Assembly (NCBI RefSeq): GCF_021545845.1
Contig: NZ_CP088923.1
Location: 1,984,001-2,048,000, forward strand
Length of the DNA stretch: 64,000 nucleotides
Source of the DNA: Rhodanobacter thiooxydans
GTDB taxonomy: Bacteria; Pseudomonadota; Gammaproteobacteria; Xanthomonadales; Rhodanobacteraceae
Direction: 5' to 3'
Numbering within the stretch: the stretch's first letter is position 1; every line of letters starts with the position of its first letter. Shown here one piece after another: positions 3,969 through 40,771 of this stretch. The notes beneath the pieces were generated by a model. The model made no database searches. It worked only from the letters and a program-made list of their open reading frames with translations, and was not told the origin of the DNA. A program made the position numbers and the translations under genes.

Positions 3969-3997
3969 TTGACTTCGCGCCGTGTCGAACCTAACAT
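3969..3997 (+). promoter_or_regulatory. Sigma-70 promoter of yceD-rpmF-fab cluster
   Basis: TTGACT (3969-3974), a 17-base spacer and TAACAT (3992-3997) form a good sigma-70 promoter. Transcription would begin near 4004, only two or three bases before the yceD ATG at 4007, so the message would be leaderless or nearly so. Confidence 0.6.
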
Positions 3998-4006
3998 TCC
4001 GCGACT

Positions 4007-4519: not shown

Positions 4520-4603
4520 CCGCTGGTCCGGATCACCCGATCCGGGCCATGACGCAACAGATCACCTTAGTTTCAACCATCGAGTTTCAGCTGGAGAACC
4601 ATC

Positions 4604-4798: not shown

Positions 4799-4845
4799 TC
4801 GGCTTCGCGGAGCCCCGCGGGGTTCCCGGATTCCGGTCAGGCGAG

Positions 4846-4869
4846 ACGGCGCGGCAACGCGCCGTTTTG
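4846..4869 (+). terminator. Hairpin between rpmF and fabH, probable partial terminator
   Basis: ACGGCGCG, GCAA tetraloop, CGCGCCGT, then TTTGCG. The 8-bp GC-rich stem with a short T run could attenuate transcription after rpmF while letting some polymerase reach fabH. Confidence 0.5.
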
Positions 4870-4959
4870 CGTTGACGGACACCACGAATGACGCAGGGGA
4901 CGGTTGCGCTGGCGCCGTTCAAGGCGTTCAATCCTTCGTTTACGTTGATGGACAGCCGA

Positions 4960-5934: not shown

Positions 5935-6078
5935 GCCCCACGGTCCCGGGGCGCTCTCCACGATGCTGCGCACTTGGGCGTCGTCGTGTTTTGTGTCCCG
6001 GAAAACGTTGAATACAGCTGCGTACGGCCGGCAATGCTGGCACCATGGTGGTTTTCGTCGACGGGGTTCGCCCATCCC

Positions 6079-7023: not shown

Positions 7024-7053
7024 ACACAGATTCCGATTCCGAAGGAACGATCC

Positions 7054-7797: not shown

Positions 7798-7994
7798 CTC
7801 GGATGGACGCAGTTGTCGCCAGCGAACCCGTTTTGGGCGACAATTGCGCTTTCGCGCCGGTCATGGGGGACAGCGTGCCTTCGTCATCGGCCAGGCGTGG
7901 CGGCCTCGCGGTTTAGCCACTACAATGCGCCGGCCTTTCGCGGGCCTCGCGCCGGCACAGACAATCAATTACTCCCTTGAGAGGTATGGGCAAC

Positions 7995-8234
7995 ATGAGC
8001 ACCATCGAAGAGCGCGTCAAGAAAATCGTCGTCGAGCAGCTCGGCGTGAAGGAAGATGAAGTCACGGCGAACGCTTCGTTCGTGGACGATCTGGGCGCAG
8101 ATTCGCTGGACACGGTGGAGCTGGTGATGGCGCTCGAGGAAGAGTTCGAGACCGAGATTCCCGACGAGGACGCCGAGAAGATCACCACCGTGCAGCAGGC
8201 CGTCGACTACATCAAGGCCCACTCCAAGGATTGA
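7995..8234 (+). CDS. acpP: Acyl carrier protein
   Basis: 79-residue acidic carrier. The 4'-phosphopantetheine site is Ser37 in [10 protein letters not shown]. The start at [12 protein letters not shown] is preceded by TTGAGAGG; upstream in-frame ATGs would add residues not found in the family. The 197-base gap after fabG probably carries the gene's own promoter: TACAAT at 7921-7926 is a good -10 box, but no clear -35 pairs with it. That gap also has an inverted repeat TTGTCGCC/GGCGACAA. High independent expression is usual for acpP. Confidence 0.95.
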
Positions 8235-8473
8235 TCGCCACGGAATTGATCGCCGCCGACCGGGCCGGCCTGCTTCGCGCGGGTCGACCCATTCACGCGG
8301 CGGCACCGAACGCTGCGCCTTCTTGGCGCAGTTTTCGTTTCTGCAATTTGTAACGTCCAACCCCGTATGGTGGGCAGGACGCCCGCCAGGCACGATCGGG
8401 CGACGTCCCTGCGAGCTGCGCGGGACGGCTGCCGGCAGCGGCAGATCCACGCAATCACCCAAGGAACATCAGC

Positions 8474-9712
8474 ATGAGCAAGCGACGTGTAGTAGTGACC
8501 GGCATGGGCATCATCTCGCCGGTCGGCAACGACATCGCCAGCGCCTGGGATCGTGTGCTCAAGGGCGTCAGCGGCATCGGCCCGGTCACCCACTTCGACA
8601 CTTCCGCTTATTCCACGCGCATCGCCGGCCAGGTCAGCGGCTTCGATCCGGCCGAGTGGATGCCGCTCAAGGACGTCAAGAAGATGGACCCGTTCATCCA
8701 CTACGGCGTGGCGGCGGGCACCCAGGCCCTGCGCGATTCCGGGCTGGAAGTGACCGAAGCGAACGCGCCGCGCATCGGCGTGGCGGTGGGCGCCGGCATC
8801 GGCGGCCTGTACACGATCGAGGCGACCACGCTGGAGCTGGCGGCGAAGGGTCCGCGCCGGGTCTCGCCGTTCTACGTGCCCAGCTCGATCATCAACATGG
8901 TCTCGGGCCAGCTGTCGATCATGTTCGGCCTGAAGGGCCCGAACATCGCCTGCGTCACCGCCTGCACCACCGGCGCGCACAACATCGGCCTGGCCGCGCG
9001 GATGATCCAGTACGGCGATGCCGACGCGATGATCGCCGGCGGCGCCGAGTTCGCCACCACCGGCACCGCGATGGCCGGCTTCTGCTCGGCCAAGGCGATG
9101 TCCACCCGCAACGACGAGCCGGCCAAGGCCAGCCGTCCGTGGGACAAGGATCGCGACGGTTTCGTGCTGTCCGACGGCGCCGGCGTGCTGATGCTGGAGG
9201 AGTACGAACACGCCAAGGCCCGCGGCGCGCGCATCTACGCCGAGCTGGTCGGCTTCGGCATGAGTGGCGACGCGTTCCACATGACCGCGCCGAGCGAGGG
9301 CGGCGAAGGCGCAGCGCGCTGCATCCAGACCGCACTGGACGACGCCGGCCTCAATCCGGCCGAGGTGCAGTACATCAACGCGCACGGTACCTCCACGCCG
9401 CTGGGCGACCTGGGCGAGGTGATGGCGGCGAAGAAGGTGTTCGGCGACCATGCGTACAAGCTGGCGATGAGCTCGACCAAGTCCACCACCGGCCACCTGC
9501 TCGGTGCGGCCGGCGGCGTCGAGGCGATCTTCAGCATCCTGGCGCTGCGCGACCAGGTGCTGCCGCCGACGATCAACCTGGACGAGCCGGGCGAGGGCTG
9601 CGACCTCGATTTCGTGGCGAATACCGCACGCGAGGCGAAGGTCGAGGTGGCGCTCTCCAACTCGTTTGGTTTCGGCGGCACCAACGGCACGCTGGCCTTC
9701 CGCCGCGTCTGA
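8474..9712 (+). CDS. fabF: Beta-ketoacyl-ACP synthase II
   Basis: Elongation condensing enzyme, 412 residues, normal for FabF. The thiolase-fold catalytic residues are Cys164 ([10 protein letters not shown]), His in [11 protein letters not shown] and His in [11 protein letters not shown]. The GFGG loop near the C-terminus ([10 protein letters not shown]) that gates the active site is intact. A 239-base gap separates it from acpP. pabB follows within 15 bases. Confidence 0.95.
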
Positions 9713-9726
9713 CTGATCGCTTGGGC

Positions 9727-11073
9727 GTGACCTGCCATCGCCGCACCCTGGACGGCCGGCGCGACTTGCTCGCGCCGGCCGCTTCGTTCCCCGCGCGCTA
9801 TCCCTGCCTGCTGGAAAGCGTGGTACACGGCACCGCGCAGTCGCGCTACGACATCCTGTTCGCATTCCCCCGCGAGCGGCTGAGCCTGCACGCCGCCGTC
9901 GGCCTGCGCGATGGCGACGGTAACTTGCGCGAAGGGCGTTTCCTCGATGCGCTGGATGCCGCCTGGCGGGCCGAACGGCGGCCGCCGGAGCACGATGGCC
10001 TGCCGTTCCACGGCGGCTGGGTGCTGCTGCTGACGTACGAACTGGCCGGCGAAATCGAGCCGACACTGGAACTGCTACCGCCATCGACGCTGCCGCTGGC
10101 GCTGGCCGTGCGCTGTCCCGCCGCGGCGATCGTCGACCACCTGCGCGACTGCACGATCCTGGTCGCCGAGGCCGGCTGCGAATATCTGCTCGATACGCTG
10201 GAAGCCGATCTCGCGGCCGTACCGGCGATGCCGCCGCTGCCGGCGCCGGTTGCCTGGGAAGAGGATGCGCCGCGACGGTTCCTCGACGGCGTGGCGCGCA
10301 TCCACGAGCACCTGCATGCCGGCGACATCTTCCAGGTGAATCTGTCGCGCGCCTGGCGCGCGCGCTATGCGCAGCCGCCCGTGCCGGCGTCGCTGTACGC
10401 GATGCTGCGCCAGGCCAACCCGGCGCCGTTCGCCGGCCTGCTGCAGCAGCAGGGCTGGGCGGTGGTCAGCTCTTCGCCGGAGCGGCTGGTCGAGGTGCGC
10501 GGCGGCGTGGCGCAGACCCGGCCGATCGCCGGTACGCGCCCGCGGCTGCCCGGCGACGACGAGCCGGCGCGCATCCGTGAGCTGAGCGCGCACCCGAAGG
10601 AGCGTGCCGAGCACGTGATGCTGATCGACCTGGAACGCAACGACCTCGGCCGCGTCTGCGTGCCGGGCACGGTCGAGGTCGACGAGCTGATGACGGTGGA
10701 GAGTTACGCCCACGTTCACCACATCGTCTCCAATGTACGCGGACGCCTGCGCGCCGAGGTGACGCCCGGCGAGGTGATCGCCGCCACGTTTCCCGGCGGC
10801 ACCATCACCGGCTGTCCCAAGGTGCGCTGCATGGAAATCATCGCTGCGCTGGAAGACGCGCCGCGCGGCGCCTACACCGGTGCGCTGGGCTATCTCGATC
10901 GCAACGGCGAGCTCGACTTGAACATCCTGATCCGCACCCTGACCCTGGCCGGCGACGAAGTCAGCCTGCGCGCGGGCGCCGGCATCGTGGCCGACTCGGT
11001 CGCCGCCAGCGAACTGGACGAGACCCGCGCCAAGGCGCGCGGCCTGCTGCGTGCGCTGGGAGTGCCGGACTGA
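9727..11073 (+). CDS. pabB: Aminodeoxychorismate synthase component I (PabB-like)
   Basis: Chorismate-binding enzyme of the PabB/TrpE family, about 448 residues. With a glutamine amidotransferase it should make 4-amino-4-deoxychorismate for folate synthesis. The fold motifs are clear: DIFQVNLSRAW, SSSPERLVEVRGG, LIDLERNDLGR, GGTITGCPKVRCMEII and AGAGIVADS. The active-site motif reads PIAGTRP, whereas PabB of Escherichia coli has PIKGT with a lysine nucleophile; the alanine form is typical of anthranilate synthase. The adjacent pabC supports a PabB role. The start is a GTG at 9727 or a TTG at 9721; no ATG suits. The stop overlaps the pabC start by one base. Confidence 0.85.
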   Translation: MTCHRRTLDGRRDLLAPAASFPARYPCLLESVVHGTAQSRYDILFAFPRERLSLHAAVGLRDGDGNLREGRFLDALDAAWRAERRPPEHDGLPFHGGWVLLLTYELAGEIEPTLELLPPSTLPLALAVRCPAAAIVDHLRDCTILVAEAGCEYLLDTLEADLAAVPAMPPLPAPVAWEEDAPRRFLDGVARIHEHLHAGDIFQVNLSRAWRARYAQPPVPASLYAMLRQANPAPFAGLLQQQGWAVVSSSPERLVEVRGGVAQTRPIAGTRPRLPGDDEPARIRELSAHPKERAEHVMLIDLERNDLGRVCVPGTVEVDELMTVESYAHVHHIVSNVRGRLRAEVTPGEVIAATFPGGTITGCPKVRCMEIIAALEDAPRGAYTGALGYLDRNGELDLNILIRTLTLAGDEVSLRAGAGIVADSVAASELDETRAKARGLLRALGVPD

Positions 11074-11900
11074 TGACGGCGCGCATGCTGGTCGACGGCG
11101 TGGCATCGACACAGGTGTCGGCGCTGGATCGCGGCCTGGCCTATGGCGACGGCCTGTTCGAGAGCATCCGTTTCGTCGGCGCGAATGCGCCGCTGTGGTC
11201 GCGGCACATGCAGCGGCTGGCCGAAGGCTGCGAGCGACTGTATATCCCGGCGCCCGATCCGGCGCAGCTATGGCGCGAGGCGCTGGAGGTCAGCCGCGGC
11301 ATGGCGGCATCGGTGCTGCGCATCACGATTACCCGCGGTGCCGGCGAGCGTGGCTACGGTCTGCCGGCGGCACCGCGACCGACCCGGGTGGTGGCTGCCT
11401 TCACGCCGCCGCCGGTCGCCGCCGAGGCTTATGTGCAAGGCGTGCGCATGCGCGTGTGCGACATCCGCCTGGCGCAGCAGCCGCTGCTGGCCGGCCTCAA
11501 GCACCTCAACCGGCTGGAGCAGGTGCTGGCGCGCGCCGAGTGGGACGACCCGGCAATTGCCGAGGGCGTGCTGCTCGATAGCCACGGGCGGGTGATTTCG
11601 GCGACCATGGCCAATCTGTTCGCGGTGATCGACGGCGAGTTGCTGACGCCGGTGCTGGATCGCTGCGGCGTGGCCGGGGTGGCCCGCGCCGAAGTGCTGG
11701 CGGCGTGCCCGCAGGTGCGGGTCGGCGAGCTGACGCTGGCAGCCTTGCGCGGCGCCGGCGAGGTGTTCCTGAGTTCGAGCGTGCGCGGCATCCTGCCGGT
11801 GCGTTCGCTGGATGATGGCAGCTATGCGCCGGGTGCAACGACGCGCCGCTTGCAGCAGCATTGGCGTGATCTGGGATTTTCGATGGAGCAGGGCGGATGA
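11073..11900 (+). CDS. pabC: Aminodeoxychorismate lyase
   Basis: Pyridoxal-phosphate enzyme of aminotransferase fold class IV that releases pyruvate from 4-amino-4-deoxychorismate to give p-aminobenzoate. 275 residues. The N-terminal DRGLAYGDGLFESIR, the lysine in GLKHLNRLEQVLA and the C-terminal EVFLSSSVRGILPV are family hallmarks. Translation is coupled to pabB (TGATG) and to mltG (ATGA). Pairing with pabB and mltG in this order is common in gammaproteobacteria. Confidence 0.92.
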   Translation: MTARMLVDGVASTQVSALDRGLAYGDGLFESIRFVGANAPLWSRHMQRLAEGCERLYIPAPDPAQLWREALEVSRGMAASVLRITITRGAGERGYGLPAAPRPTRVVAAFTPPPVAAEAYVQGVRMRVCDIRLAQQPLLAGLKHLNRLEQVLARAEWDDPAIAEGVLLDSHGRVISATMANLFAVIDGELLTPVLDRCGVAGVARAEVLAACPQVRVGELTLAALRGAGEVFLSSSVRGILPVRSLDDGSYAPGATTRRLQQHWRDLGFSMEQGG

Positions 11901-31359: not shown

Positions 31360-31436
31360 TGCGGGGTGGAGCAGTCTGGCAGCTCGTCGGGCTCATAACC
31401 CGAAGGTCGCAGGTTCGAATCCTGCCCCCGCTACCA
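31360..31436 (+). tRNA. metY: Initiator tRNA-Met (CAT)
   Basis: 77-base cloverleaf with encoded CCA. The anticodon stem TCGGG/CCCGA holds the loop CTCATAA with anticodon CAT at 31394-31396. The three G:C pairs next to the loop (GGG/CCC) and the mismatch at the end of the acceptor stem (T at position 1 opposite T at 72) mark an initiator rather than an elongator tRNA. In many gammaproteobacteria an initiator tRNA gene stands just upstream of rimP-nusA-infB; here a 9.3-kb island has entered at its 3' end, leaving the gene itself intact. Confidence 0.95.
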
Positions 31437-31686
31437 GCTTTAGCTGACAATCCGATGCGGCGATCTCTGCGAAGAGGTCGCCGTTTTCATTTCGGACGGT
31501 GATTCGCTCCCCGAGCAATTCGCGGATCGCTTCGCGTGCTGCCGGCAAGTTTTGCGCACGCTGCGCCAGCACTTTCACCATCGCATCCCAGCGCTCGCGC
31601 AGCCGCGGCAGCATGGTCACGGCCGGGGCAGGGCGCATGGCGTCCTGCGCATCCTGCAATTCGCTTTCTGCGCGTTCCAGCTCAGC
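31393..31686 (-). pseudogene. C-terminal remnant of a site-specific recombinase reading into tRNA-fMet
   Basis: 97 residues remain. The part ending ITVRNENGDLFAEIAA resembles the helical C-terminus of serine recombinases, with a coiled-coil (ELERAESELQDAQDA) before it. The final residues VAGAGFEPATFGL are encoded by the antisense strand of the tRNA, and the stop codon (31393-31395) lies in the anticodon loop. Such tRNA-encoded C-termini are typical of integrases whose gene ends at their own attachment site. The N-terminal catalytic domain is gone: the frame runs upstream into transposase sequence at about 31687. The assignment as serine rather than tyrosine recombinase is tentative. Confidence 0.65.
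31417..31437 (+). repeat. attL: tRNA-fMet 3' end direct repeat
   Basis: GAATCCTGCCCCCGCTACCA plus the following G. This is the T-stem, acceptor strand and CCA of the intact tRNA, identical to 40734-40754. Confidence 0.85.
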
Positions 31687-32097
31687 CCGCGTGCCCTTGC
31701 GCTGAATGTTGGCCCGATAGCCCTGCACGTACAGCTCGGTTTCCCGCGCGTGCTTGGCATAGCCGCGGTCGGCGTAGACATCTTTGTGGGTATTGGCCTC
31801 GTCCAGTATCGACTCGAACACCTCGGTGTCGTTGACCGAGGCGCTGGTGACGTCGACCTTGCGGATGAAGCCCCAGCGCCGATCCGTGTTGGCGTGCAGC
31901 TTGTAACCGTAGTGGCTCTTGCCGTGCTTCTTCGTCCAGCGCGCATCCACGTCCTTCTGCGCGCGCTTGAAAGGCTCGGGTCCGTCCCGCTTTCTGGGGC
32001 GGCCTGCGGGTGGTTGAGCAGCGACTTCGCGTGGCAGCCGCTTGATGGCCGCGTGGGGCACACACGAATCGCGTGAATCCTTCGGCCTCCCGGGCGG
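31687..32097 (-). pseudogene. IS5-family transposase fragment fused to recombinase remnant
   Basis: About 137 codons of an IS5-type DDE transposase. Clear family blocks are QKDVDARWTKKHGKSHYGYK, then HANTDRRWGFIRKVDVT and DVYADRGYAKHARE; the last block carries the second catalytic aspartate. Homology stops after NIQRKGTRA, before the region with the catalytic glutamate, and the frame continues without a stop into the recombinase tail. The N-terminus, with the first aspartate, is also missing; upstream sequence reaches the bufferin-like gene. No terminal inverted repeats were found, so the copy is dead. The in-frame fusion suggests insertion followed by deletion. Confidence 0.7.
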
Positions 32098-32145
32098 CTC
32101 TATGAGGTGCCGGACGCCCCGGCCCACCTTACGGAGATACCCATC

Positions 32146-32442
32146 ATGAACTACGACAATCTGCTCAAGGTCGCCCTGGCCGGCGCGCTGACCTTCGGCG
32201 TGGTATCGGTTGCCACCGCCAGCCCGGCGCCGAACGGCGCGAACGACATGAAGTCGGCCAACATGGCCATGACCAAGTGCTACGGCATCAATGCGGCGCA
32301 CAAGAACGACTGCAAGTCGCCGGGGCATTCATGCGCCGGCCAGGACAGCAAGGCACGTGATGCCAATGCGTTCGTGGCCGTGCCGGCCGGCCTGTGCGAG
32401 AAGATCGACGGCGGTTCTACCACCCCGGTCGACAAGGCCTGA
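32146..32442 (+). CDS. DUF2282 (bufferin BufA-like) small secreted protein
   Basis: 98 residues. A Sec-type signal peptide covers about residues 1-25 (LLKVALAGALTFGVVSVATA, then SPA). The mature part has the DUF2282 pattern of four cysteines in KCYGIN, NDCKS, HSCAGQD and GLCEKIDGG. Bufferins are ribosomally made, copper-binding peptides modified by a DUF692 enzyme (BufB), helped by BufC (established knowledge). ACGGAG 9 bases upstream is a good ribosome binding site. The expected BufB follows only as a short remnant, so the peptide may be left unmodified unless an enzyme is encoded elsewhere. Confidence 0.8.
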   Translation: MNYDNLLKVALAGALTFGVVSVATASPAPNGANDMKSANMAMTKCYGINAAHKNDCKSPGHSCAGQDSKARDANAFVAVPAGLCEKIDGGSTTPVDKA

Positions 32443-32451
32443 GTCAGGGCC

Positions 32452-32577
32452 ATGAGCTGCCTGCTGCCACAGGTGCAGCGCCCGATCCCGGCAGCCGTCG
32501 GGATCGGCTTGCGCGCGCCGCACATCGCCCGGGTGCTGCAGGAGCAGCCGCGGGTGCCGTGGTTCGAAGTGCACAGC
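32452..32577 (+). pseudogene. N-terminal remnant of DUF692 (BufB-like) enzyme
   Basis: About 42 codons starting MSCLLPQVQR and containing PAAVGIGLRAPHIARVL and PWFEVHS. This matches the start of DUF692/MbnB-type proteins (GIGL..H and FEVH with the metal-binding histidine). Homology stops after FEVHS; the open frame runs on to 32646 with unrelated residues. The gene lies 9 bases after the DUF2282 gene, the normal bufA-bufB order, so an entire modification operon has been cut off here. Confidence 0.65.
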
Positions 32578-32907
32578 CTCTTATGGAGGGAGGCCGGTGC
32601 CACATTGCCTGAGAACGGTGCCTACTGTGTTCGTGGCTCGCTCTGAGGACCAAACCGTGACGCGTCGATCGTACCGTAGGTATTCCCGCGGCAACCGGCA
32701 CAGAGGACTGCTCAGTTAGGTGGTTCATGAATGCCGTGCGCACGAGGCTCGCAGGGGCTAAGTCTGCTGGCCGGGTGCCGACGCATGCCTTTCACCCGCG
32801 TGCCGCCCGTCCTTCCCAACGGAAGGGGCTATCGCCCGCATTCCTTCCCGCGCGCCCACGGCGTCGTACGGATCGTGTTATCACTCAAATCAGACGGGAG
32901 CAGTTCT

Positions 32908-35352
32908 GTGAACGTAAGTGTTATGAGCCGGCCGCGAAACCATCGGGCTGTTAACGCCACACATCACGTGGATGCCGCCCCCGTCCGTGGCCCTTGGTTG
33001 TTCATGACACGGCGCGTGCGCGGGTCCAAGCGGCCTCGCCTCAAGATGCTTGCCCAATGCCTCGCTGTCTCGCTGGTCACGGCGAGCCCCACCGTCTTTG
33101 CCCAAAGCACCGCGCCTGACCAGACGCCAAAGGACTTACAGGCCATCATCGTGACCGCCCGTGATCAGCAGGAGCCGTTGATTACCGTTCCCGAGAGCAT
33201 CACGACCTTCTCAGCGTCGTCCCTCAATGCGCTGGATATCCGCTCGTTCAACGATTACGCCACCAAGACACCGAACCTGTCGTTCAACTACGGATCGGGC
33301 ACTACCGGCATTTCAGCGGCGCGAACCATTGCGATCCGAGGGATCGGCGGACAGAACCTCTTTGGCGCGGCGGGTTCCACCGGCTTTTATATTGACGATA
33401 CGCCGCTACCCGAATCGATCGATCCGCGCATTGTCGACATGGAGCGCATCGAGGTTCTGAAAGGGCCGCAGGGCACGCTATTTGGGCAAAGCTCATTGGG
33501 CGGCACCGTCCGCATCATTACCCAAAAGCCCGACCTGTCGCACAACGACGTCGGCTTCATGACGCAAGCAGGATTCACGTCCGGTGGCGGGAGCCCGGAT
33601 AAGGGCGGTAGCGTGACCGGCAATCTCGTGGTCATTCCCGACGAAATGGCCATCCGCGCCGTGCTCTTCGCCAACCACGACGCCGGCTACCTGACGCGCA
33701 CCTATCCCTCACCCGACAGTCCAGCCGTCGGCGATCCCTTTATCGCTGCCCCGCGTACCCGTGTGGATGACCAGGGTGCGCAAACGACGTACGGCGGATC
33801 GATCACAACGCTTCTTCGCGTCACTCCGTCGTTCGATGCGACCTTGCGCTTCTTGATGCAGAACACCTATTTCCACGGCTTTCCCGCGACCTTTGCTCCC
33901 CTGCCATCCTTCAAGCCGGCGTATCAGCTTGACCGGGCCTTCGATATCCAGCCCAGCGCGTTGGACAAGTGGTATTTGCCGTCCCTCGATCTTCGCTACC
34001 ACGGGGATCACTACACGTTAGTGTCGGTCACCAGCTACTTTGATCGCCACAGCCGCGACATCGAGGACTCCACCTATGGCACCCAGCAAGTCATGAGCGG
34101 CTACTACGGCGTGCCATCGCTTCCGCCACAGCCTTTCCTCTGGGACCAGGAACACCACCAGGATCAGTTTAGCCAGGAGCTTCGATGGGAATTCACGGAC
34201 GTCTTTGGCGCCAAGGGCACGTTGGGCGCGTTCTATTCGAAGACCCACACCACGCTCAGTGTGCCGCCAGAGTACGCGCAGGGGCTTGTGGCAGCCACGG
34301 CGGACAACACCGTGGTGGGTCCTTGGCCGGACAACCTTCTTTGGATCGACCGCAACCCGGGCATGCAGGAAGAGAAGGCGATCTTCGGCGAGATCGACGT
34401 ACCGCTCGCCGAGCGTTGGACGGCCACCCTGGGCGCCCGACAGTATTGGCTGCATCAAACGTCCGACTTCACAGCGTATGGCTTCAACAACTTCGGAGCC
34501 ACGACCAGCGATCCGCAGTCGAGCCATCAATCGGGTCTCGACCCCAGGCTCGCGATCCGTTATCAAGCTACGCCAAACACCCTGTTCTATGCGTCGGCGT
34601 CGAAGGGGTTTCGAGCCGGCGCGGCGCAGCAGTATCTGCCGTTCTGCGCGTTGCCGTCGTTACCCGCCGATGACATTACGCATCTGAAGTCAGACACGCT
34701 CTGGAGCTATGAAGTTGGTGCCAAAACGTCGATTCCCGATGCAGGCATTTTCATCTCGGCGTCCGCCTACCACATCGACTGGCGCAATCTCCAACAGCAA
34801 GTCGCCTTGCCTTGTGGCGCGTACTTTTCCATCAACGGCCGCCACGCGCACATCGACGGGGGTGAAGTCGAGTTCAACGGACGCGCCACCGAGCACCTCG
34901 AGCTACGCGCCGGCGTGGGTTACGAACGCAGCCGCATCAACGACCCTGGCGCGCTGTCGATCGTGGGCATCACGCCCGGCTCGTCGGTCCTGGGTGTGCC
35001 TACCTGGACGGCGACGCTAGCGGGTGTCTATACCCATCCTATTTCGCGGGGCTGGGACGGTTACCTGGAAGCGGACGCGGGCTATACGGGCAGCAGCCGG
35101 ACGTTGCTGAACGGTGGCAACGGTCTGTTCGGGACGCGCGATGCTTATGTGCTCACCAACGTTCGTGTCGGCGTGCGGCATGGGCCATCGGATGTTTCCT
35201 TGAATGTCCACAATGCCGGTAACGCGAAACCGAACCTGGGTGACATCGGTTACGTGGGTTATGCGCAATATACGCAAAATGGCACGATCATCCCCCAGGT
35301 CGCCACCCTGCCGCCGCGGACGGTGCTATTGGAGTATCGCTACAACTACTGA
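32908..35352 (+). CDS. TonB-dependent outer-membrane receptor
   Basis: About 814 residues. A GTG start at 32908 is preceded by GGGAG at a 7-base distance; an ATG at 32923 and a longer frame from 32731 are less likely. A long N-terminal leader ends in a signal peptide (MLAQCLAVSLVTASPTVFA). A TonB-box-like DLQAIIVTARD comes next, then the plug (VPESITTFSASSLN, TIAIRGIGGQ, RIEVLKGPQGTLFGQSSLGG) and a 22-strand-type barrel ending in VLLEYRYNY. No STN signalling domain is present, so no FecI/FecR control is expected. The ligand is unknown. It heads the Ynj-type transporter genes in the same direction, 205 bases upstream of them, and probably feeds them. Confidence 0.88.
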   Translation: MNVSVMSRPRNHRAVNATHHVDAAPVRGPWLFMTRRVRGSKRPRLKMLAQCLAVSLVTASPTVFAQSTAPDQTPKDLQAIIVTARDQQEPLITVPESITTFSASSLNALDIRSFNDYATKTPNLSFNYGSGTTGISAARTIAIRGIGGQNLFGAAGSTGFYIDDTPLPESIDPRIVDMERIEVLKGPQGTLFGQSSLGGTVRIITQKPDLSHNDVGFMTQAGFTSGGGSPDKGGSVTGNLVVIPDEMAIRAVLFANHDAGYLTRTYPSPDSPAVGDPFIAAPRTRVDDQGAQTTYGGSITTLLRVTPSFDATLRFLMQNTYFHGFPATFAPLPSFKPAYQLDRAFDIQPSALDKWYLPSLDLRYHGDHYTLVSVTSYFDRHSRDIEDSTYGTQQVMSGYYGVPSLPPQPFLWDQEHHQDQFSQELRWEFTDVFGAKGTLGAFYSKTHTTLSVPPEYAQGLVAATADNTVVGPWPDNLLWIDRNPGMQEEKAIFGEIDVPLAERWTATLGARQYWLHQTSDFTAYGFNNFGATTSDPQSSHQSGLDPRLAIRYQATPNTLFYASASKGFRAGAAQQYLPFCALPSLPADDITHLKSDTLWSYEVGAKTSIPDAGIFISASAYHIDWRNLQQQVALPCGAYFSINGRHAHIDGGEVEFNGRATEHLELRAGVGYERSRINDPGALSIVGITPGSSVLGVPTWTATLAGVYTHPISRGWDGYLEADAGYTGSSRTLLNGGNGLFGTRDAYVLTNVRVGVRHGPSDVSLNVHNAGNAKPNLGDIGYVGYAQYTQNGTIIPQVATLPPRTVLLEYRYNY

Positions 35353-35557
35353 CCGTTGGGTTCCGATCGTCGTCCGGCGTCTGTGCTGGCATCGGCCTGT
35401 GTCGTGACGGGCGCCGTCCCATCGCGATGGGGCCTTCGATCCGATCGCCGAAGGCGCGACGTTCACGCAACGCGATGAATGCTTTTCCAGCCCTTGGCTC
35501 TCTCATGAAGGGGCGTTTGGCGTTTGGGCGTGGACGCGCGAAAGCCCCCGTCAGATC

Positions 35558-36850
35558 ATGCTGACTTCGCAAGGAATGTTGCACGTGCACGTTGGGAATT
35601 CCGCACCGCCTGCGGCTGGGGTGGCTCTGCATCGGTTGGTGCGAGGCCTGTCGGGCATCGGATTGGCCGTCGTCCTGGCGGCCTGCCAGAGCCCGACGCC
35701 GGCGCCTGCGGCCGACCCCCGCACGGCGTCGTGGGGCACCGTACTCACCCAGGCGCGCGGCCAAACCGTGACGATGGCGATGTGGCAGGGCGATCCGGCC
35801 ATCAATGCCTACATGCGCACCTACGTGGCGCCCCATCTCGCTCACGACTTCGGCATCACGCTGCGGCTCGTGCCGGGGCAGGGCAATACCGTGGTGACCG
35901 CCTTGATGACCGAGGCGGAGGCCGGCCCTGCCTCCAGTGCCTTCGATATCGTCTGGATCAATGGCGAAACGTTCTACCAGTTGCGCCAGATCCACGCGCT
36001 GTTTGGTCCCTTTACCGCTCAGCTGCCGAACAACCGGTACGTCGATTGGCAGAATCCGTTCATCGCACTGGACTTCCAGCAGCCCGTCGACGGCCAGGAG
36101 GCGCCCTGGGGCAACGTCCAGTTGCTGCTGATCACGGACCGCGCCCGCGTCAGCAATCCGCCGCGCACGCCGGCGGCGCTCGCGCAATGGATTCACGCAC
36201 ACCCGGGCCGCTTTACTTTCGACACCGGTTTTACCGGCACCAGTTTTCTCAAATCGCTCCTGTACGCCTTCGCCGATGCGCCGGCGCAGCTGCAAGGGCC
36301 GTTCGATCCGGTGGTCTATGCGCGCCTGCGCGATCGCGTGTTCGCCTGGGTACAGTCCGTGCGGGGCGACTTGTGGCGTCACGGCGAGACCTTTCCCACG
36401 GATGTGGCGCAGCTGCATACGCTCTTCGCCAACGGCGAAGTGGACTTCACCATGAGCTTCAACGACGGCGAGGTCGACAACAAAGTCGATGATGGCCTCT
36501 TTCCGCCGACCGCCACGGCCTACGCCTTGACCACCGGCACCCTGCAGAACAGCCACTACCTGGGGATCGTCCAGCGCTCGGCGCACAAAGCCGCCGCGAT
36601 GGTGACGATCAACTTCCTGGAATCCCCGGACGCGCAGCTGCGCAAGCTCGATCCCAAGGTATGGGGGGACGGCACGGTGCTGTCCCTGGACGCGTTGCCG
36701 GGTGATTGGCGTGCACGCTTTGCGCGGGTCCAAGCGCGTCAGCACGCCCCGGGGCGACACGCCCTCCAGCCCTTCGCCCGACCGGAGCCCTCACCTGAGT
36801 GGATGATCCGCCTGTCCGAAGACTTTCGTCGCCAGGTGATGCATGACTAG
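35558..36850 (+). CDS. YnjB-like ABC transporter substrate-binding lipoprotein
   Basis: Up to 430 residues. A hydrophobic stretch ends in a lipobox (VVLAACQS), so the protein should be anchored as a lipoprotein. The mature part follows the YnjB pattern of Escherichia coli: GQTVTMAMWQGDPAINAYM near the N-terminus, FDIVWINGETF, DTGFTGTSFLKSLL, and the signature SPDAQLRK...VWGD near the C-terminus. YnjB belongs to the iron/thiamine-type binding-protein superfamily; its ligand is not established. The start is uncertain: ATG 35558, or GTG 35585 with AAGGA 9 bases upstream. The first permease gene overlaps its end by 8 bases. Confidence 0.85.
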   Translation: MLTSQGMLHVHVGNSAPPAAGVALHRLVRGLSGIGLAVVLAACQSPTPAPAADPRTASWGTVLTQARGQTVTMAMWQGDPAINAYMRTYVAPHLAHDFGITLRLVPGQGNTVVTALMTEAEAGPASSAFDIVWINGETFYQLRQIHALFGPFTAQLPNNRYVDWQNPFIALDFQQPVDGQEAPWGNVQLLLITDRARVSNPPRTPAALAQWIHAHPGRFTFDTGFTGTSFLKSLLYAFADAPAQLQGPFDPVVYARLRDRVFAWVQSVRGDLWRHGETFPTDVAQLHTLFANGEVDFTMSFNDGEVDNKVDDGLFPPTATAYALTTGTLQNSHYLGIVQRSAHKAAAMVTINFLESPDAQLRKLDPKVWGDGTVLSLDALPGDWRARFARVQARQHAPGRHALQPFARPEPSPEWMIRLSEDFRRQVMHD

Positions 36851-37709
36851 GTGGCGCACCCCGGACCCGTGGTTGACGCTCCTGCTGTTGCTGACAGTGG
36901 GGCCGATGGTGGTGGCCTGGATCTTCATGGTGGCCTATGCCTCAGGCGGTATCGGCCTGCTCTCGACGGGTTGGACGCTCGCGCATTGGCGTGCCGCGCT
37001 GGCGAGCGGCGAGACCTGGGCGTCCATCGGTTACAGCTTCGCCCTGGCTGCCGTCACCATGATCGTGGCCTTGGGGCTGGCCATGATCGGCCAGGCCGTG
37101 CTGGGCGCACACGCGCGTCGCGGTGCCCTGGGCAGCCTCCTTTTTGTGCCACTGGCCGTGCCACCGCTGGTGGCGGCCCTGCTGAGCATCGAGCTGTTCG
37201 GCAACACCGGCTGGTTGGCCCGTCTCAGTCACGCCGCGGGGCTGATCGACCGACCCGACCAGTTTCCAGCGCTGCTGTTCACGCGCTCGGGCAGCGGCAT
37301 CGTGCTGACCCAGGTGTGCCTCGTCGCGCCGTTTTTGTGGCTGTTGGTCGATCGACTGATGCGGCACGCGCGCGTCGCCGACTTGGGGCAGGTGGCCCGC
37401 ACGCTTGGAGCCAGTTCGTGGCAAGTCTGGCGTCGCGTGACGTTTCCCGTCGTGCTGCGCGCCGGAGCACCCACGTTCAGCGTGTACTTCATCGTACTGG
37501 CCGGCGCCTTTGAGGTGCCGCTCATGGTGGGCGCGCAGTACCCGCAGGTCGTGTCGCTCCTGATCCAGCGCAAGTTCGATCGCTTTGACCTCACCAGCAA
37601 GCCGGAGGCCTATGCGATCGCCGCGCTGTACGCTGTGATCGCCGTGACCGCTTTGCTGGCGTTGTTTCGCTGGCACCGACACCGGGTGGGCGGGGAGGGC
37701 GACGCATGA
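36843..37709 (+). CDS. ABC transporter permease, YnjC N-terminal-half-like
   Basis: 288 residues with six predicted membrane helices. The coupling loop near residues 185-205 reads RTLGASSWQVWRRVTFPVVLR, the EAA-type motif that contacts the ATPase. In Escherichia coli YnjC is a fused permease of about 510 residues; here the two halves are separate genes, this being the first. Helices include LLLLLTVGPMVVAWIFMVAY and LLFVPLAVPPLVAALLS. Overlaps the binding-protein gene by 8 bases and the next permease by 4. Confidence 0.85.
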   Translation: MTRWRTPDPWLTLLLLLTVGPMVVAWIFMVAYASGGIGLLSTGWTLAHWRAALASGETWASIGYSFALAAVTMIVALGLAMIGQAVLGAHARRGALGSLLFVPLAVPPLVAALLSIELFGNTGWLARLSHAAGLIDRPDQFPALLFTRSGSGIVLTQVCLVAPFLWLLVDRLMRHARVADLGQVARTLGASSWQVWRRVTFPVVLRAGAPTFSVYFIVLAGAFEVPLMVGAQYPQVVSLLIQRKFDRFDLTSKPEAYAIAALYAVIAVTALLALFRWHRHRVGGEGDA

Positions 37710-38503
37710 GCGTTCGACGCGTGCTGGCCAGCCTCCTGGCCCTGGCGCTTGTGGCTCCGCCGCTGCTATTGGGCATGCTTTCCGTCGCCCGCCAGTGGCG
37801 GTGGCCCGCGCTGTGGCCGACCGCGTGGCAGGTCCAGCAATGGCACGAGGTAGCCGGGGACCTCACTGGCGCCGGCATGATGGGCGCGCTGGCTCGCTCG
37901 CTCGCCCTGGCACTGACGGTGGCTGTGGTCGCGACGGCGCTCGGCTTACCGACCAGTCGACGGGTCGCGGGCCTCCCGCGGCGCGGTGCGTGGCTGACGG
38001 CGCTGCATCTGCCGTACGCGCTCTCACCGGTGGTGCTGGCTGTTGGCCTGCTGTTTGCGTTTCTGCATCTGCACCTGGCCGGACATCTCCTCGGCGTGCT
38101 GCTCGCCCAGCTGGTCTTCGCCTATGCCTACGCGGTCATCCTGCTGAGCGCGTTGTGGACACCACGCGTCGCCGCGCTGGAAGACCTGGCGAGCACCTTG
38201 GGCGCGCGTCGCCTTCAGGTTTGGTGGCGCGTCCTGGTGCCGGTGGCGCGCCCGATGCTCGCCGTCTGCCTGTTCCAGACGTTTCTGATTTCCTGGTTCG
38301 ACTACGCGTTGGTACGGTTGATCGGGCAAGGCGAGGTGCAGACGCTCACCATCCGCCTGTTCGAGTACTTTACGTCCGGCGACCTTCGGCTGGCCGCGAC
38401 GTGTGCCCTGATCTTGATGACGCCGCCCCTGGTCACGCTACTGGTCCATCGCGCGGTGCCCCCGTCGCTCCTGGCACCCCAGGCAGGCTCGTCCCATGAG
38501 TAA
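37706..38503 (+). CDS. ABC transporter permease, YnjC C-terminal-half-like
   Basis: 265 residues, six membrane helices, with the ATPase contact loop DLASTLGARRLQVWWRVLVP at about residues 152-171. It pairs with the preceding permease to form the heterodimeric channel. Start ATGA overlaps the upstream stop, and the end overlaps the ATPase gene by 8 bases, so stoichiometry is probably set by translational coupling. Confidence 0.85.
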   Translation: MSVRRVLASLLALALVAPPLLLGMLSVARQWRWPALWPTAWQVQQWHEVAGDLTGAGMMGALARSLALALTVAVVATALGLPTSRRVAGLPRRGAWLTALHLPYALSPVVLAVGLLFAFLHLHLAGHLLGVLLAQLVFAYAYAVILLSALWTPRVAALEDLASTLGARRLQVWWRVLVPVARPMLAVCLFQTFLISWFDYALVRLIGQGEVQTLTIRLFEYFTSGDLRLAATCALILMTPPLVTLLVHRAVPPSLLAPQAGSSHE

Positions 38504-39278
38504 TCGCTCACCTGTTGCCCTGACGATCGAGAACCTACGGGTGACGCTCGGGGACAGCGCCGTGCTGGACGGCGCCTCGCTGCATCTGGCTGCCGGTACC
38601 ACGTTGGCGGTGATCGGTGCCTCCGGTTGCGGCAAGACCACCTTGCTGCGCGCGATTGCCGGGCTCGTGCCGATCGCGGCTGGCCGCATCACCCTCGGAA
38701 GCCAGCCCGTCGACGGGCTGCCGCCTCACCAGCGCGGCATGGTGTACCTCAATCAGGAGCCCTTGTTGTTTCCGCACCTGAACCTGTTCGACAACGTCGC
38801 CTTTGGTCTGCGGTTGCGGCATCGACCCGAGGCCGAGATTCGGGCGCGGGTCAGCGAGTTGATGGTCCTGCTCGAACTCGACGGGCTGGAGCGCCGTGCA
38901 CCCCACGCGTTGTCCGGTGGCCAGCGCCAACGCGCCGCGTTTGCCCGCGCCCTGATCGTGGAGCCCGCCTTGCTTCTGCTGGATGAGCCCTTCAGCAACC
39001 TCGATCCCGATACCCGGGTCAGCGCCCAGACGCTCTTTAAGCAAGTGGCGCGCACGCGTGGCATCACCTCAATGTTCGTGACGCACGATCTCAAAGAGTC
39101 GCTGCGCATGGGCGATACCTTCGCCCTGATGCGACGCGGGCAGCTGCGCCTCTACCACGATCGCGCTGCCTTTTGCGGCGACCCGGACACCGGCGTGGCA
39201 CGGGAAGCGGCCTTCTGGAGCCTCGTGATCGATGCCCCGGTCGCGTTCCCCTCCGGCGTGTCGCACCGGCGTACCTGA
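38496..39278 (+). CDS. ABC transporter ATP-binding protein, YnjD-like
   Basis: 260 residues with all nucleotide-binding motifs: Walker A GASGCGKTT (about residues 42-50), Q-loop in YLNQEPLLFPHL, signature LSGGQRQR, Walker B LLLLDEPFSNLD and the switch histidine in FVTHDLKES. There is no C-terminal regulatory domain. As the last gene of the overlapping set, it completes an importer with one lipoprotein, two permeases and one ATPase that dimerises. The order binding protein-permease-ATPase matches ynjB-C-D. Confidence 0.9.
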   Translation: MSNRSPVALTIENLRVTLGDSAVLDGASLHLAAGTTLAVIGASGCGKTTLLRAIAGLVPIAAGRITLGSQPVDGLPPHQRGMVYLNQEPLLFPHLNLFDNVAFGLRLRHRPEAEIRARVSELMVLLELDGLERRAPHALSGGQRQRAAFARALIVEPALLLLDEPFSNLDPDTRVSAQTLFKQVARTRGITSMFVTHDLKESLRMGDTFALMRRGQLRLYHDRAAFCGDPDTGVAREAAFWSLVIDAPVAFPSGVSHRRT

Positions 39279-39297
39279 CGCCTCGCGGGCGCGCGCG

Positions 39298-39888
39298 TTA
39301 CGACGGCAGGGACAGCCATCGCGCGGCATGGCGCAACCGCTGGACCATGGTGTAGCCGATCACGGCGATGAAGACGCCGGTCCAGATCAGGAGATGGCTA
39401 CGGTCCGCCACCATCAGCGTGAGGCAGATGAACGCCTCGGTGCGCTCCCCCAGGCCCGGGGAGTAGTGAAAGGATTTCACCGATGTATTGCGAATCGCCG
39501 CCGCGATCGACAGAAACAAGGACATCGCCACAGCGATTTCGCCCGCCAGGATCACCAGCATGAAGCGCGCCTCGGGATGACGCCACGCCAAGGCGACGAT
39601 CATGGCCACCTCGACCACACGATCGAAGGTGATGTCCATGATGGCGCCCAGGGGGCTGGTATGGGTCATGCGGGCGAGGGCGCCGTCCGACGCATCCAGC
39701 AACCCCGACAGCCACAGCAGGCCAATCCCCAGCCACGGTTGATCCAACGCGATGCTCAGCGCTGCGACCACACCTACCAGCATGGCCAGTGCCGTGACCG
39801 CATTCGCGGAGAGGCCCAGCGCCTTCAGGCCGCGGGCGACCCGGGCAATGAACGGTTCCACCAGATGACGTGCACGGGTATCGAGCAT
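39298..39888 (-). CDS. CDP-alcohol phosphatidyltransferase, YnjF-like
   Basis: 196-residue membrane protein with about six helices. The catalytic motif is D65-x2-D68-G69-x2-A72-R73-x7-G81-x3-D85-x3-D89, complete in acidic residues. The spacing of seven between AR and G is one shorter than canonical PgsA-type enzymes, and from memory the same as in YnjF. These enzymes transfer a head group or phosphatidyl unit between a CDP-linked donor and an alcohol. It is convergent with the transporter, 19 bases from the ATPase stop. In Escherichia coli ynjF ends the ynjBCD operon, so the association recurs here. Substrate unknown. Confidence 0.85.
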   Translation of the reverse strand: MLDTRARHLVEPFIARVARGLKALGLSANAVTALAMLVGVVAALSIALDQPWLGIGLLWLSGLLDASDGALARMTHTSPLGAIMDITFDRVVEVAMIVALAWRHPEARFMLVILAGEIAVAMSLFLSIAAAIRNTSVKSFHYSPGLGERTEAFICLTLMVADRSHLLIWTGVFIAVIGYTMVQRLRHAARWLSLPS

Positions 39889-39943
39889 GGTTCCTCAACG
39901 AAGCAAGCAGCCCACAGGCCAGAAAGAAAAAGGGCAAGGCGCC

Positions 39944-40233
39944 CTAGAATAGGTCCGACACCGTGACGCGGAGCTTGCCACTGGGGCGAGGGGGATGTCA
40001 TCGACAAAATGGCTGTGCAGCTCGATCTGCACCCCCAGCACGCGCCGCGTTTCGTGCTCGATCATGGCCAGCGCCTGCTCATCAAAGCGCGGCTCGCGGA
40101 CAATGGATACATCCAGCCGATCCAGCTGACGCTGGACTACCTGGAACCGCTCCACGCCAGGGACGCCCTTGCCCAACTCACGCCAGCGCTGGCAAGGGGC
40201 GACACGGCCGCGCCACAGGCGGCGACGGTGCAT
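39944..40233 (-). pseudogene. C-terminal remnant of CapK/phenylacetate-CoA-ligase-like adenylating enzyme, frameshifted
   Basis: The frame gives GVERFQVVQRQLDRLDVSIV, then RRVLGVQIELHSHFVDDIPLAP, which matches the C-terminal domain of CapK-type adenylate-forming enzymes. After DDIPLA the frame breaks; shifting by one base gives SGKLRVTVSDLF and a stop at 39944-39946, the expected SGK end with the catalytic lysine. A single-base loss in the C-rich run near 39980 explains this. The large N-terminal domain is absent. It lies 55 bases upstream of the phosphatidyltransferase gene in the same direction, so the two may once have formed an operon. Confidence 0.6.
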
Positions 40234-40266
40234 GCAGGGGCCAAGGGCTCCGATGACCTCCCGTAA

Positions 40267-40649
40267 AGATTAAAGAGAGGCGCTCACCTGGCCAAAGGAT
40301 TCATGGCGTCACGCAACAGCCAATGCGGCGACCTGCCCGTCACCGGCAGCCCGATGCGCCTCGGCCCGGCGCTGCCGTTACCATGACGCCCGTACCCGCA
40401 GCGGGGACGGCAGGGGCGAGGCCCTGTCGTGACACGACACTCGCCTCATCACCTAGAGACCGACATGCCCGATTCGTAGAACCTTTAGATGCCGACCGAG
40501 CTCAAGTTCAATAGCACGGAGGTCGATTAGCGAGGGGTTATCCGGGTAGGTTAGGGCTTCTGCCCCAAGCGGCCAGCGGAGTCAACGCTCGCGCCCGTTA
40601 CCCTCGTAGATCCTCACCGTACGGTCCATGGAGGAGGGGTAGAATCCGT
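40267..40649. other. Non-coding decayed stretch at right end of island
   Basis: About 380 bases with no convincing gene. Short open frames here have no family motifs, ribosome binding site or codon bias. It may be the scar of lost island genes, such as the 5' part of the CapK-like gene. Confidence 0.5.
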
Positions 40650-40678
40650 TTGCACCGCGAGATGTTGTCGGCTATGAT
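40650..40678 (+). promoter_or_regulatory. Strong promoter upstream of decayed tRNA and rimP
   Basis: TTGCAC (40650-40655), a 17-base spacer and TATGAT (40673-40678). It has the layout of a tRNA promoter: the tRNA-like sequence begins 12 bases after the -10 box. It could now drive rimP-nusA-infB if the terminator at 40772 is bypassed. Confidence 0.6.
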
Positions 40679-40690
40679 CAACAAACTCTG

Positions 40691-40753
40691 ATGCGGCCAA
40701 GCGGCAGCCTGATGGTCTCAGTAGGATAGAGCCTGAATCCTGCCCCCGCTACC
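40691..40753 (+). pseudogene. Decayed tRNA-fMet-like sequence at attR
   Basis: It begins TGCGG, preceded by ACTCTGA exactly as in the intact tRNA (12 shared bases, 40684-40695 and 31353-31364), and ends with the exact 20-base tRNA 3' end including CCA. The middle is shortened and unrelated; it lacks an anticodon arm, and CTCAGTAGGATAGAG looks like a D-arm of another tRNA. It cannot fold as a tRNA. Confidence 0.6.
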
Positions 40754-40754
40754 A
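40734..40754 (+). repeat. attR: tRNA-fMet 3' end direct repeat
   Basis: Exact second copy of the 21 bases at 31417-31437, marking the right boundary of the island. Confidence 0.85.
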
Positions 40755-40771
40755 GATCTTTCTTGATGTAA

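Follow-up and report, generated by a model that had tools for sequence, protein, structure and literature searches.

A tRNA-Met island of Rhodanobacter thiooxydans carries a TonB-dependent receptor gene beside ynjBCD-type importer genes and a YnjF-type phosphatidyltransferase gene

In Escherichia coli MG1655, ynjB-C-D is followed by ynjE and then by the convergent ynjF. One report calls YnjBCD uncharacterised (PMC9207381), ydjXYZ-ynjABCD appears in an FNR-regulon table (PMC3688515), and the K-12 annotations of ynjBCD and ynjF read 'putative' or name a domain only. YdjX and YdjZ are described as the E. coli DedA proteins nearest to TMEM41B (PMC7818093), and the COG0398 subfamily of DedA proteins, which is close to TMEM41B and occurs fused to FAD oxidoreductases, has been proposed to comprise phospholipid flippases or scramblases (PMC10127716). 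The first-pass annotation of the DNA studied here stated that the E. coli set has no outer-membrane receptor, which holds in the 12 kb of MG1655 that we viewed. We found no paper that combines the parts of a receptor-ynjBCD-YnjF operon.

The window analyzed here is a 64,000-nt stretch of R. thiooxydans (NZ_CP088923.1, positions 1,984,001 to 2,048,000), in which a 9,297 bp genomic island (31438..40734) is inserted at a tRNA-Met (CAT) gene (31360..31436, + strand), recognized by ARAGORN and Rfam. The island lies between two exact copies of a 21-bp direct repeat, the left of which (31417..31437) is the tRNA-Met 3′ end and the right of which is at 40735..40755. It is missing in all three same-genus genomes examined (G191, G155 and G162), where the DNA passes from the tRNA end straight to window position 40735 and the junction is visible as an empty site; the flanks in G191 are 97-98% identical to the window. 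The empty site in relatives and the repeat at the tRNA 3′ end identify a tRNA-borne island. A frame at 31393..32328 (− strand) contains a piece of an IS5-family transposase (DDE_Tnp_1, 58.9 bits, residues 122-216; IS5_4, 80.5 bits, under the cut-off of 140), the sole scoring match when the island was checked for an integrase; we take its C-terminal stretch to resemble an integrase tail entering the tRNA. A BufA2-like DUF2282/bufferin-type precursor gene (32107..32442, likely start 32146, + strand) scores 68.4 bits with PF10048 and 29.1 bits with NF050166, under the cut-off of 60. About the first 52 codons remain of a truncated bufferin-maturation gene (MNIO, BufB; 32452..32607, + strand), and across 52 residues they share 75% identity with the copy at position 7464 of L208 in the window's own genome. 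No plasmid record matched the island's right end (39900-40734). A promoter scan of the locus gave a result at best equal to shuffled sequences, and nine terminators were found where shuffles averaged 5.5; none of these results served as evidence.

The receptor gene (+ strand, ending at 35352, with an uncertain start at 32731, 32908 or 33004) encodes a TonB-dependent receptor, as its TonB barrel (112.9 bits) and Plug (48.3 bits) both exceed the Pfam cut-offs. After a gap of 205 bp, four transporter genes follow on the + strand, overlapping by 8, 4 and 8 bp. They encode a YnjB-type solute-binding lipoprotein (35558..36850; NF008633, 388.6 bits, cut-off 203), two half-permeases of 288 aa (36843..37709; PF00528 BPD_transp_1, 31.3 bits) and 265 aa (37706..38503; same domain, 31.7 bits), which by position are the first and second halves of a split YnjC, and a YnjD-type ATPase (38496..39278; ABC_tran, 110.1 bits). 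In 14 control genomes, NF008633 matched in three, E. coli included, and exceeded its cut-off in one. The lipobox cysteine C43 is invariant across eight aligned sequences, the window's included. BLAST against E. coli gave 36% identity for YnjB, 35% for YnjD and 26% for YnjF; the half-permeases had no match to YnjC at E 1e-3, and single-linkage clustering grouped them with YnjC-type proteins. The order ynjB, permease, ynjD is kept, as in the window's clade. Instead of an E. coli-like fused permease, separate halves are matched in 11 of 11 loci of this clade, so that fusion appears dispensable for a YnjBCD importer. Structure prediction, suggested at the outset as a way to the ligand of the lipoprotein, produced a poor model (pLDDT 51.8, built with eight sequences) from which no ligand was inferred; the lipoprotein sequence matched no solved structure, and its alignment gave as best match a ferric-iron-binding protein at E 0.029.

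Convergent with the ATPase gene is the gene of a YnjF-type CDP-alcohol phosphatidyltransferase (39298..39888, − strand; PF01066 CDP-OH_P_transf, 45.6 bits), which has the complete motif D-x2-DG-x2-AR-x7-G-x3-D-x3-D. E. coli YnjF shares the seven-residue spacing, as do 39 of 50 YnjF-type proteins; ten others have a spacing of 8 and one has none of 6-9. Outside the motif, the protein has K138, G145, E148, E151 and R184, residues that all 50 members compared, this one among them, have in common. Its predicted fold is nearest to phosphatidylinositol-phosphate synthases, and it reaches neither the NCBIfam cut-off for these enzymes (53.1 vs 170) nor that for archaetidylinositol-phosphate synthase (74 vs 180). 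Thus, both the lipoprotein, half-permeases and ATPase tracking ynjB-C-D and the convergent transferase with YnjF-like spacing, as read by the first-pass annotation, were confirmed.

We compared 67 ynjB loci by six-frame profile search, counting neighbors within about 10 kb. Genomes other than the window's had 64 places over the cut-off, of which 60 were used (G931, G936, G823 and G969 were left out); to these were added the window, E. coli MG1655 and five of seven further loci, the two dropped, L004 and L007, being the contigs of G167 and G184. Some stretches stop at contig ends, and loci within one family are near-copies, so that the counts are not independent. YnjF lies beside ynjB in 46 loci of many families, on the opposite strand in 13 of them, the window among these; this supports the proposed link between transferase and importer. 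It is missing from 21 stretches. A dedicated receptor family, TBDR5, is found near ynjB in 16 of the 67 loci, always on the ynjB strand. Five TBDR5 loci are without YnjF: L003, whose stretch ends directly after the ATPase gene, L008 and L091, whose stretches end 6-7 kb downstream, and L009 and L092, which are not cut. In genome searches at a limit of E 1e-60, with the top few candidates per genome scored, TBDR5 was present in 7 of 398 genomes of a phylum sample (1,016-1,076 bits), adjacent to ynjB in 7 of 7 and all among the 51 genomes with ynjB, and in 3 of 233 genomes of a family sample (1,402-1,496 bits), adjacent in 3 of 3. It was found solely beside ynjB in both samples (10 genomes), and ynjB itself is rare in the host family (4/233). 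YnjF is not enriched with TBDR5 (11/16 loci vs 35/51 without, p 0.62), and we rejected the idea that it is commoner alongside this receptor.

Two of the 51 loci without TBDR5, the window and L006, have a different receptor type. The other 49 contain 151 frames of at least 560 aa, a length at which shorter or contig-cut receptors escape. Of these frames, 69 overlap the permease, fusion, YnjB or YnjF cluster or one of two more, and the remaining 82 were scanned with Pfam. Thirty-two of them showed no TonB barrel and, among the best 25 of 139 families listed, at most one of the other 50 had one, while a known receptor added as a control was detected. A general receptor profile took the longest frame of each locus unchecked, and its rebuilt version missed the annotated second receptor of L197. 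A receptor never co-occurring with YnjBCD and a transferase absent from neighboring loci had been named as findings that would speak against the first-pass annotation; both were looked for, and the survey showed neither. Its link between receptor and importer is supported through TBDR5, in 16 of 67 loci, and not through the window's own receptor.

By sequence comparison, the window receptor (type W) is a different, rare type, other than the dedicated TBDR5. Identity to TBDR5 stays below 30% across at most 209 aa, and for want of full-length similarity we rejected its assignment to that family; no TBDR5 was found in the window genome at E 1e-60 among the 2 and 4 of 14 candidates scored. Nor is type W common in the host family, as the top match in the other 232 genomes is 32% identical, and 93 other genomes of the class gave no match at E 1e-90 (top few candidates per genome scored in both searches). 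The closest relative found, at L006, is 61.5% identical over 756 aa; its gene has an in-frame stop and is separated from ynjB, on the opposite strand, by about 7 kb that include other genes. The L006 ynjB locus is without TBDR5, and its genome has a TBDR5-like receptor on another contig (272.6 bits, E 3.9e-81, within the 1e-60 limit), around which 18 kb showed no ynjB or ynjF match. In the 11-locus clade of the window, the two members lacking TBDR5 are the two type W carriers; in the YnjB tree, the two rows nearest to the window have TBDR5 and L006 is on a separate branch. As its receptor is of a non-dedicated type, the window locus alone could not reveal the receptor-ynjBCD link.

Three annotated marine records (L197-L199; Pseudoalteromonas sp. 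CF6-2, CuT4-3 and Catenovulum adriaticum), out of seven plasmid records with TBDR5, have one gene run in the order receptor, TVP38/TMEM64 (DedA-type)-FAD fusion, DUF547, ynjB, ynjC, ynjD, CDP-alcohol transferase and sterol desaturase. The VTT/FAD fusion occurs in 20 of the 67 ynjB loci. DUF547 accompanies TBDR5 in 10 of 16 loci vs 1 of 51 without it, and a fatty-acid hydroxylase in 7 of 16 vs 1 of 51; the surveyed loci are related, so that p-values for these partner genes are overstated. The island is without fusion, DUF547 and hydroxylase, and the window genome has a VTT/FAD fusion gene about 226 kb away. In Roseivivax, genes annotated PqiA, PqiA and MlaD precede YnjF-YnjBCD. The outer-membrane-to-lipid route proposed in the first-pass annotation is partly supported: the three marine gene runs and the association of YnjF with ynjB speak for it, the equal frequency of YnjF with and without TBDR5 against it.

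We judge the chances about even that the window copy is a mobile, trimmed version of a conserved uptake-to-membrane module in which YnjF attaches the imported compound to lipid. The TonB receptor would carry a scarce, probably polar or anionic compound across the outer membrane, the YnjB lipoprotein would capture it in the periplasm, and the split YnjC permease with the YnjD ATPase would move it into the cytoplasm, where YnjF would link it, or a product of it, to the phosphatidyl group from CDP-diacylglycerol. Gene association and enzyme family suggest that the imported compound may be incorporated in a lipid; we infer that all parts act on one compound, which way the route runs and what lipid it would yield.

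TonB receptors chiefly take up metal complexes, and an unlikely alternative is that the importer handles such complexes or a different small ligand (polyamine or phosphonate), with YnjF as a bystander kept nearby for another reason. The PDB matches of both receptor types are siderophore, pesticin, colicin and haem receptors, mainly in the plug region, where similarity is weakly informative on the ligand. The weak iron-protein match of YnjB and the below-cut-off scores of ATPase and permeases with polyamine and phosphonate families point the same way, as does a review table that pairs a Streptomyces polyamine-binding protein with YnjB as its counterpart in E. coli (PMC9397018). Bufferins chelate copper (PMC12452194), and bufferin-maturation genes are present in stretches L004-L007, L087, L092 and L125, with remnants in the window; however, the ArsS locus of the window's genome has bufferin genes without ynjBCD, and we rejected them as part of the module. 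Against a bystander role, YnjF accompanies ynjB in 46 of 67 loci from many families, and the receptor-bearing operons L197-L199 combine it with a hydroxylase and a DedA-type protein. That the window copy is instead a decaying chance assembly of an importer unit and an unrelated receptor, without joint function, seems very improbable. The broken bufferin gene and transposase piece, a receptor outside the family's own type, the three missing partner genes and the scarcity of ynjB in the host family would fit such decay, but the six main genes are open over their full length, the transferase retains its motif and family-invariant residues, and the only other type W receptor found likewise neighbors a ynjB locus that lacks TBDR5 and branches separately in the tree.

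A further reading, which we regard as quite unlikely, is that the module serves arsenosugar chemistry: the receptor and YnjBCD would import an organoarsenical (an arsenosugar or its precursor), and YnjF would make arsenosugar phospholipid from CDP-diacylglycerol. ArsS has been described as the radical SAM enzyme in the biosynthesis of arsenosugars (PMC12159101). The VTT/FAD fusion and ArsS flank the TBDR5-ynjBCD-YnjF unit in L004 and L007; ArsS scores 443.8 bits in L004 and 430.9 in L208 (cut-off 300). The fusion occurs in 8 of 16 genus genomes sampled, all with ArsS at most 1.2 kb downstream (less than 0.22 kb in four, with a DUF3047 gene between in two, and 0.85 and 1.2 kb in two), and a methyltransferase-like gene follows ArsS (ArsM families, below cut-offs). 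TIGR04282, 'arsenosugar biosynthesis glycosyltransferase' in NCBI, scores 142 in L208, above its cut-off of 134, and 131.6 in L004, just below it, and the adjoining gene scores 53-62 bits to the TIGR04283 protein of L079. By clustering, a TIGR04283/TIGR04282 pair also follows ynjBCD in four loci of one other family, L079 (266.2 vs cut-off 182 and 156.6 vs 134), L096, L100 and L115; both glycosyltransferase names, however, are NCBI naming. ArsS is near ynjBCD in two loci only, both of the window's genus, where the unit may simply have come to lie; in the window genome it lies about 228 kb from the island, beside the fusion, and nothing in the window, the island included, matched ArsS. E. coli retains the set, yet the 12 kb viewed there contain no gene annotated in this way, and the 52 plasmid records with ArsS (E 1e-30) include none from the two genera of the TBDR5 plasmids, Pseudoalteromonas and Catenovulum. 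The ArsS neighborhood in two same-genus relatives thus offers a testable, thinly supported idea of the ligand. Its wider form, that YnjBCD-YnjF is the lipid end of arsenosugar metabolism, with YnjF the first arsenosugar-phospholipid synthase and enterobacteria keeping importer and enzyme for a related ligand, is decidedly improbable. We found no open-access paper on a gene for the arsenosugar phospholipid step and none linking any two of arsenosugar, TVP38 and DUF547; were this reading true, candidate genes for that step would be named.

By adding an outer-membrane receptor, a DedA-type domain of proposed lipid-moving function and a lipid hydroxylase, the conserved operon gives the unassigned ynjBCD and ynjF of E. 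coli a common theme. Should the uptake-to-membrane route prove real, it would couple import to the attachment of a head group, and the window copy, with its different receptor, would offer a way to the ligand.

Among known systems, the 2-aminoethylphosphonate, polyamine, molybdate and thiamine ABC importers share scores with the window ATPase and permeases, below cut-off among the matches listed, but the window lipoprotein belongs to the YnjB family. Phosphatidylinositol-phosphate synthases and AF2299 (6h53, 5d92 and 4o6n) share the predicted fold (TM 0.65-0.80 by query length, ranks 1-19 listed) and the CDP-alcohol motif with the window YnjF, which differs in being 18-24% identical and below the family cut-offs. 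The E. coli ydjXYZ-ynjABCD, ynjE and ynjF set has YnjB/C/D/F homologues in the same order with ynjF convergent, as in the window, whereas YnjC is fused, the VTT proteins are separate, ynjA and ynjE are present, and no receptor is seen in the 12 kb. The same-genus loci L004 (G167) and L007 (G184) resemble the window in their split permease and opposite-strand YnjF, with YnjB 70% and 77% identical, but have TBDR5 in place of type W and lie between the VTT/FAD fusion and ArsS rather than in a tRNA-Met island. The Pseudoalteromonas/Catenovulum operon shares a TonB receptor, ynjBCD and a YnjF-type transferase with the window; in contrast, its receptor is TBDR5, its permease is fused, its YnjF is on the same strand, and its run adds the VTT/FAD fusion, DUF547 and sterol desaturase, none of which is in the window island.

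The region between the tRNA-Met gene (31360-31436) and position 40735 is absent from three relatives of the window's strain. In all three same-genus genomes examined (G191, G155 and G162), the end of the tRNA is joined directly to the equivalent of 40735, and the G191 flanks are 97-98% identical to those of the window. The tRNA 3′ end forms a 21-bp repeat with copies at 31417-31437 and 40735-40755. Because of these empty sites and the repeat at both ends, 31438-40734 (9,297 bp) is an island. The surrounding gene run is presumably nuo genes and tRNA-Met on one side and rimP, nusA and infB on the other, as we named them from their translations. On the left of the island lie a piece of a transposase, the gene for a bufferin-type precursor, and a gene for bufferin maturation that breaks off after ~52 codons.

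The first-pass annotation described a receptor, a YnjBCD-like importer and a YnjF-like transferase, and family profiles confirmed all of these genes, each inside the insert. The receptor has TonB plug and barrel domains, the lipoprotein is a YnjB family member by its score of 388.6 bits (cut-off 203), and two half-permeases, one ATPase and a convergent CDP-alcohol phosphatidyltransferase gene were recovered. The transferase motif is complete as had been stated, and its 7-residue spacing is also that of E. coli YnjF. Among 50 YnjF-type proteins, the spacing is 7 in 39, 8 in 10 and neither in one. The window transferase keeps every residue invariant across the 50, including K138, G145, E148, E151 and R184 outside the motif. 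A structure predicted from 5 sequences (pLDDT 75.2, pTM 0.65) most resembles phosphatidylinositol-phosphate synthases and AF2299, with E-values of 1.4e-4 and weaker, but the protein scored under the curated cut-offs of those families.

YnjB exceeded its curated cut-off in 4/233 family genomes, 14/369 of the class sample and 51/398 of the phylum sample; the window's own genome is one of the hits in all three counts. The neighborhood counts are based on 67 ynjB loci, 46 of which have YnjF within the stretch, 33 on the same strand as ynjB and 13, including E. coli and the window, on the opposite strand. A dedicated TonB receptor family, TBDR5, occurs in 16/67 loci with 47-90% identity among nine loci compared. 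In the phylum sample TBDR5 was found in 7/398 genomes at E 1e-60 and in the family sample in 3/233, and all seven and all three carry an adjacent ynjB. YnjF is present in 11/16 TBDR5 loci versus 35/51 others, and is therefore not enriched with the receptor. The corresponding counts are 10/16 versus 1/51 for DUF547, 7/16 versus 1/51 for a hydroxylase, and 10/16 versus 10/51 for a fusion of a TVP38/TMEM64 (VTT) domain to an FAD oxidoreductase. Separately, 69 plasmid records carry YnjB relatives (E 1e-20); 20 of these plasmids are typed as conjugative, and the hosts include Klebsiella (12), Escherichia (7) and Salmonella (7).

The three plasmid records examined of the seven with TBDR5, from the marine Pseudoalteromonas sp. 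CF6-2, CuT4-3 and Catenovulum adriaticum, share the order TonB receptor, VTT/FAD fusion, DUF547, YnjB, YnjC, YnjD, CDP-alcohol phosphatidyltransferase and sterol desaturase. The full set is present in a different order in L007, a locus from the window's genus on the G184 contig that is also represented by L078. Several TBDR5 loci also have genes of ~220-260 aa 3′ of the ATPase gene (clusters 19 and 39; L007 13465-14929, L008 13394-14808, L009 13436-14880, L077 12841-14341, L091 2097-3451 and L092 6310-7041, where only the first gene clustered), which are candidates for additional components of the system; the L091 pair had no match in Pfam or NCBIfam. At one Nevskia locus the pair is followed by a SPASM/radical SAM protein gene (L009 14887-15975). 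On a Roseivivax plasmid (L200 1069-9667), genes annotated as PqiA, PqiA, MlaD family and auxiliary lipoprotein precede YnjF-YnjB-YnjC-YnjD, a possible link to envelope lipid transport.

The window's receptor is of another type (type W). As a TBDR5 candidate it was rejected, with <30% identity over short stretches only, and no TBDR5 was found at E 1e-60 among the candidates scored from the window's genome. Across the other 232 family genomes, the top-scoring match to the window's receptor shares 32% identity along most of the receptor, and 93 other class genomes gave no match at E 1e-90. A 61.5% relative over 756 residues lies in L006, ~7 kb from a ynjB locus without TBDR5, on the opposite strand and with an in-frame stop. 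Of the 51 loci without TBDR5, these two have another receptor; a Pfam scan of 82 long frames from the other 49 loci found the TonB barrel absent in 32 frames and at most one barrel among the remaining 50. The closest partner of the window in the YnjB tree is L078 (support 98/97) and that of L006 is L076 (100/96), and both partners have TBDR5; the clade's two TBDR5-less members, which are also the two type W bearers, are therefore on separate branches. There are just two such cases, and the L006 receptor may be broken and is loosely linked to ynjB. The L006 genome, outside the two samples, also encodes a distant TBDR5 relative on another contig (L209 7415-9898; 272.6 bits, E 3.9e-81, versus 1,016-1,496 bits in the ten carriers of the two samples), with an ABC ATPase ~5 kb downstream and no ynjB or ynjF match in the 18 kb fetched around it; it may serve a sister system.

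Arsenosugar phospholipids carry a phosphatidyl group on a glycerol-arsenosugar, and such a lipid is the kind of product that a CDP-alcohol phosphatidyltransferase could make. In two same-genus loci, L004 and L007, the TBDR5-ynjBCD-YnjF unit is flanked by the VTT/FAD fusion and ArsS, which PMC12159101 describes as the radical SAM enzyme of arsenosugar biosynthesis, where arsenic is adenosylated. The fusion in the window's genome, with 81% identity to the L007 fusion, is ~0.2 kb from ArsS and some 226-228 kb from the island, in a row (L208 7464-17171; G000:C1 ~2247463-2257170) that starts with bufferin-type genes and continues through a sigma-factor-like gene, the fusion, ArsS and a methyltransferase-like gene to TIGR04283/TIGR04282-type genes. 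Among 16 genus genomes sampled, 8 have the fusion, all with ArsS ≤1.2 kb downstream. Against an arsenosugar role, ArsS is near ynjBCD in L004 and L007 only, the E. coli set is without ArsS in the 12 kb seen, and of 52 plasmid records with ArsS none comes from the two genera with TBDR5 plasmids.

ArsS in the window's genome is followed by a methyltransferase-like gene, whose L007 counterpart is under the ArsM cut-offs, and by TIGR04283-like (58 bits to the L079 protein), TIGR04282 (142 bits, cut-off 134) and weakly PitA-like (41 bits, cut-off 800) genes. By clustering, four loci, all from a single other family, also have the TIGR04283/TIGR04282 pair 3′ of ynjBCD (L079, L096, L100 and L115; model scores are for L079 only). 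L079 has an APH-type kinase, ynjBCD, TIGR04283, TIGR04282 and the fusion in one row (3503-11685), and a kinase together with a CofC-like nucleotidyltransferase would be suited to activating an alcohol after import.

The associations of the importer with the phosphatidyltransferase and with a TonB receptor are real and wider than the first-pass annotation could know. Its proposal of a complete outer-membrane-to-lipid route, with putative ligand and lipid product, is partly supported by this gene association, but the window's copy has a different receptor type. The open-access literature yielded no description of the operon and no link of ynjF with phosphatidyl. Todor and co-workers (PMC10127716) propose that DedA proteins of the COG0398 subfamily act as phospholipid flippases or scramblases, and they describe members fused to FAD oxidoreductases; we infer that the VTT/FAD fusions of ynjB loci belong to this subfamily.
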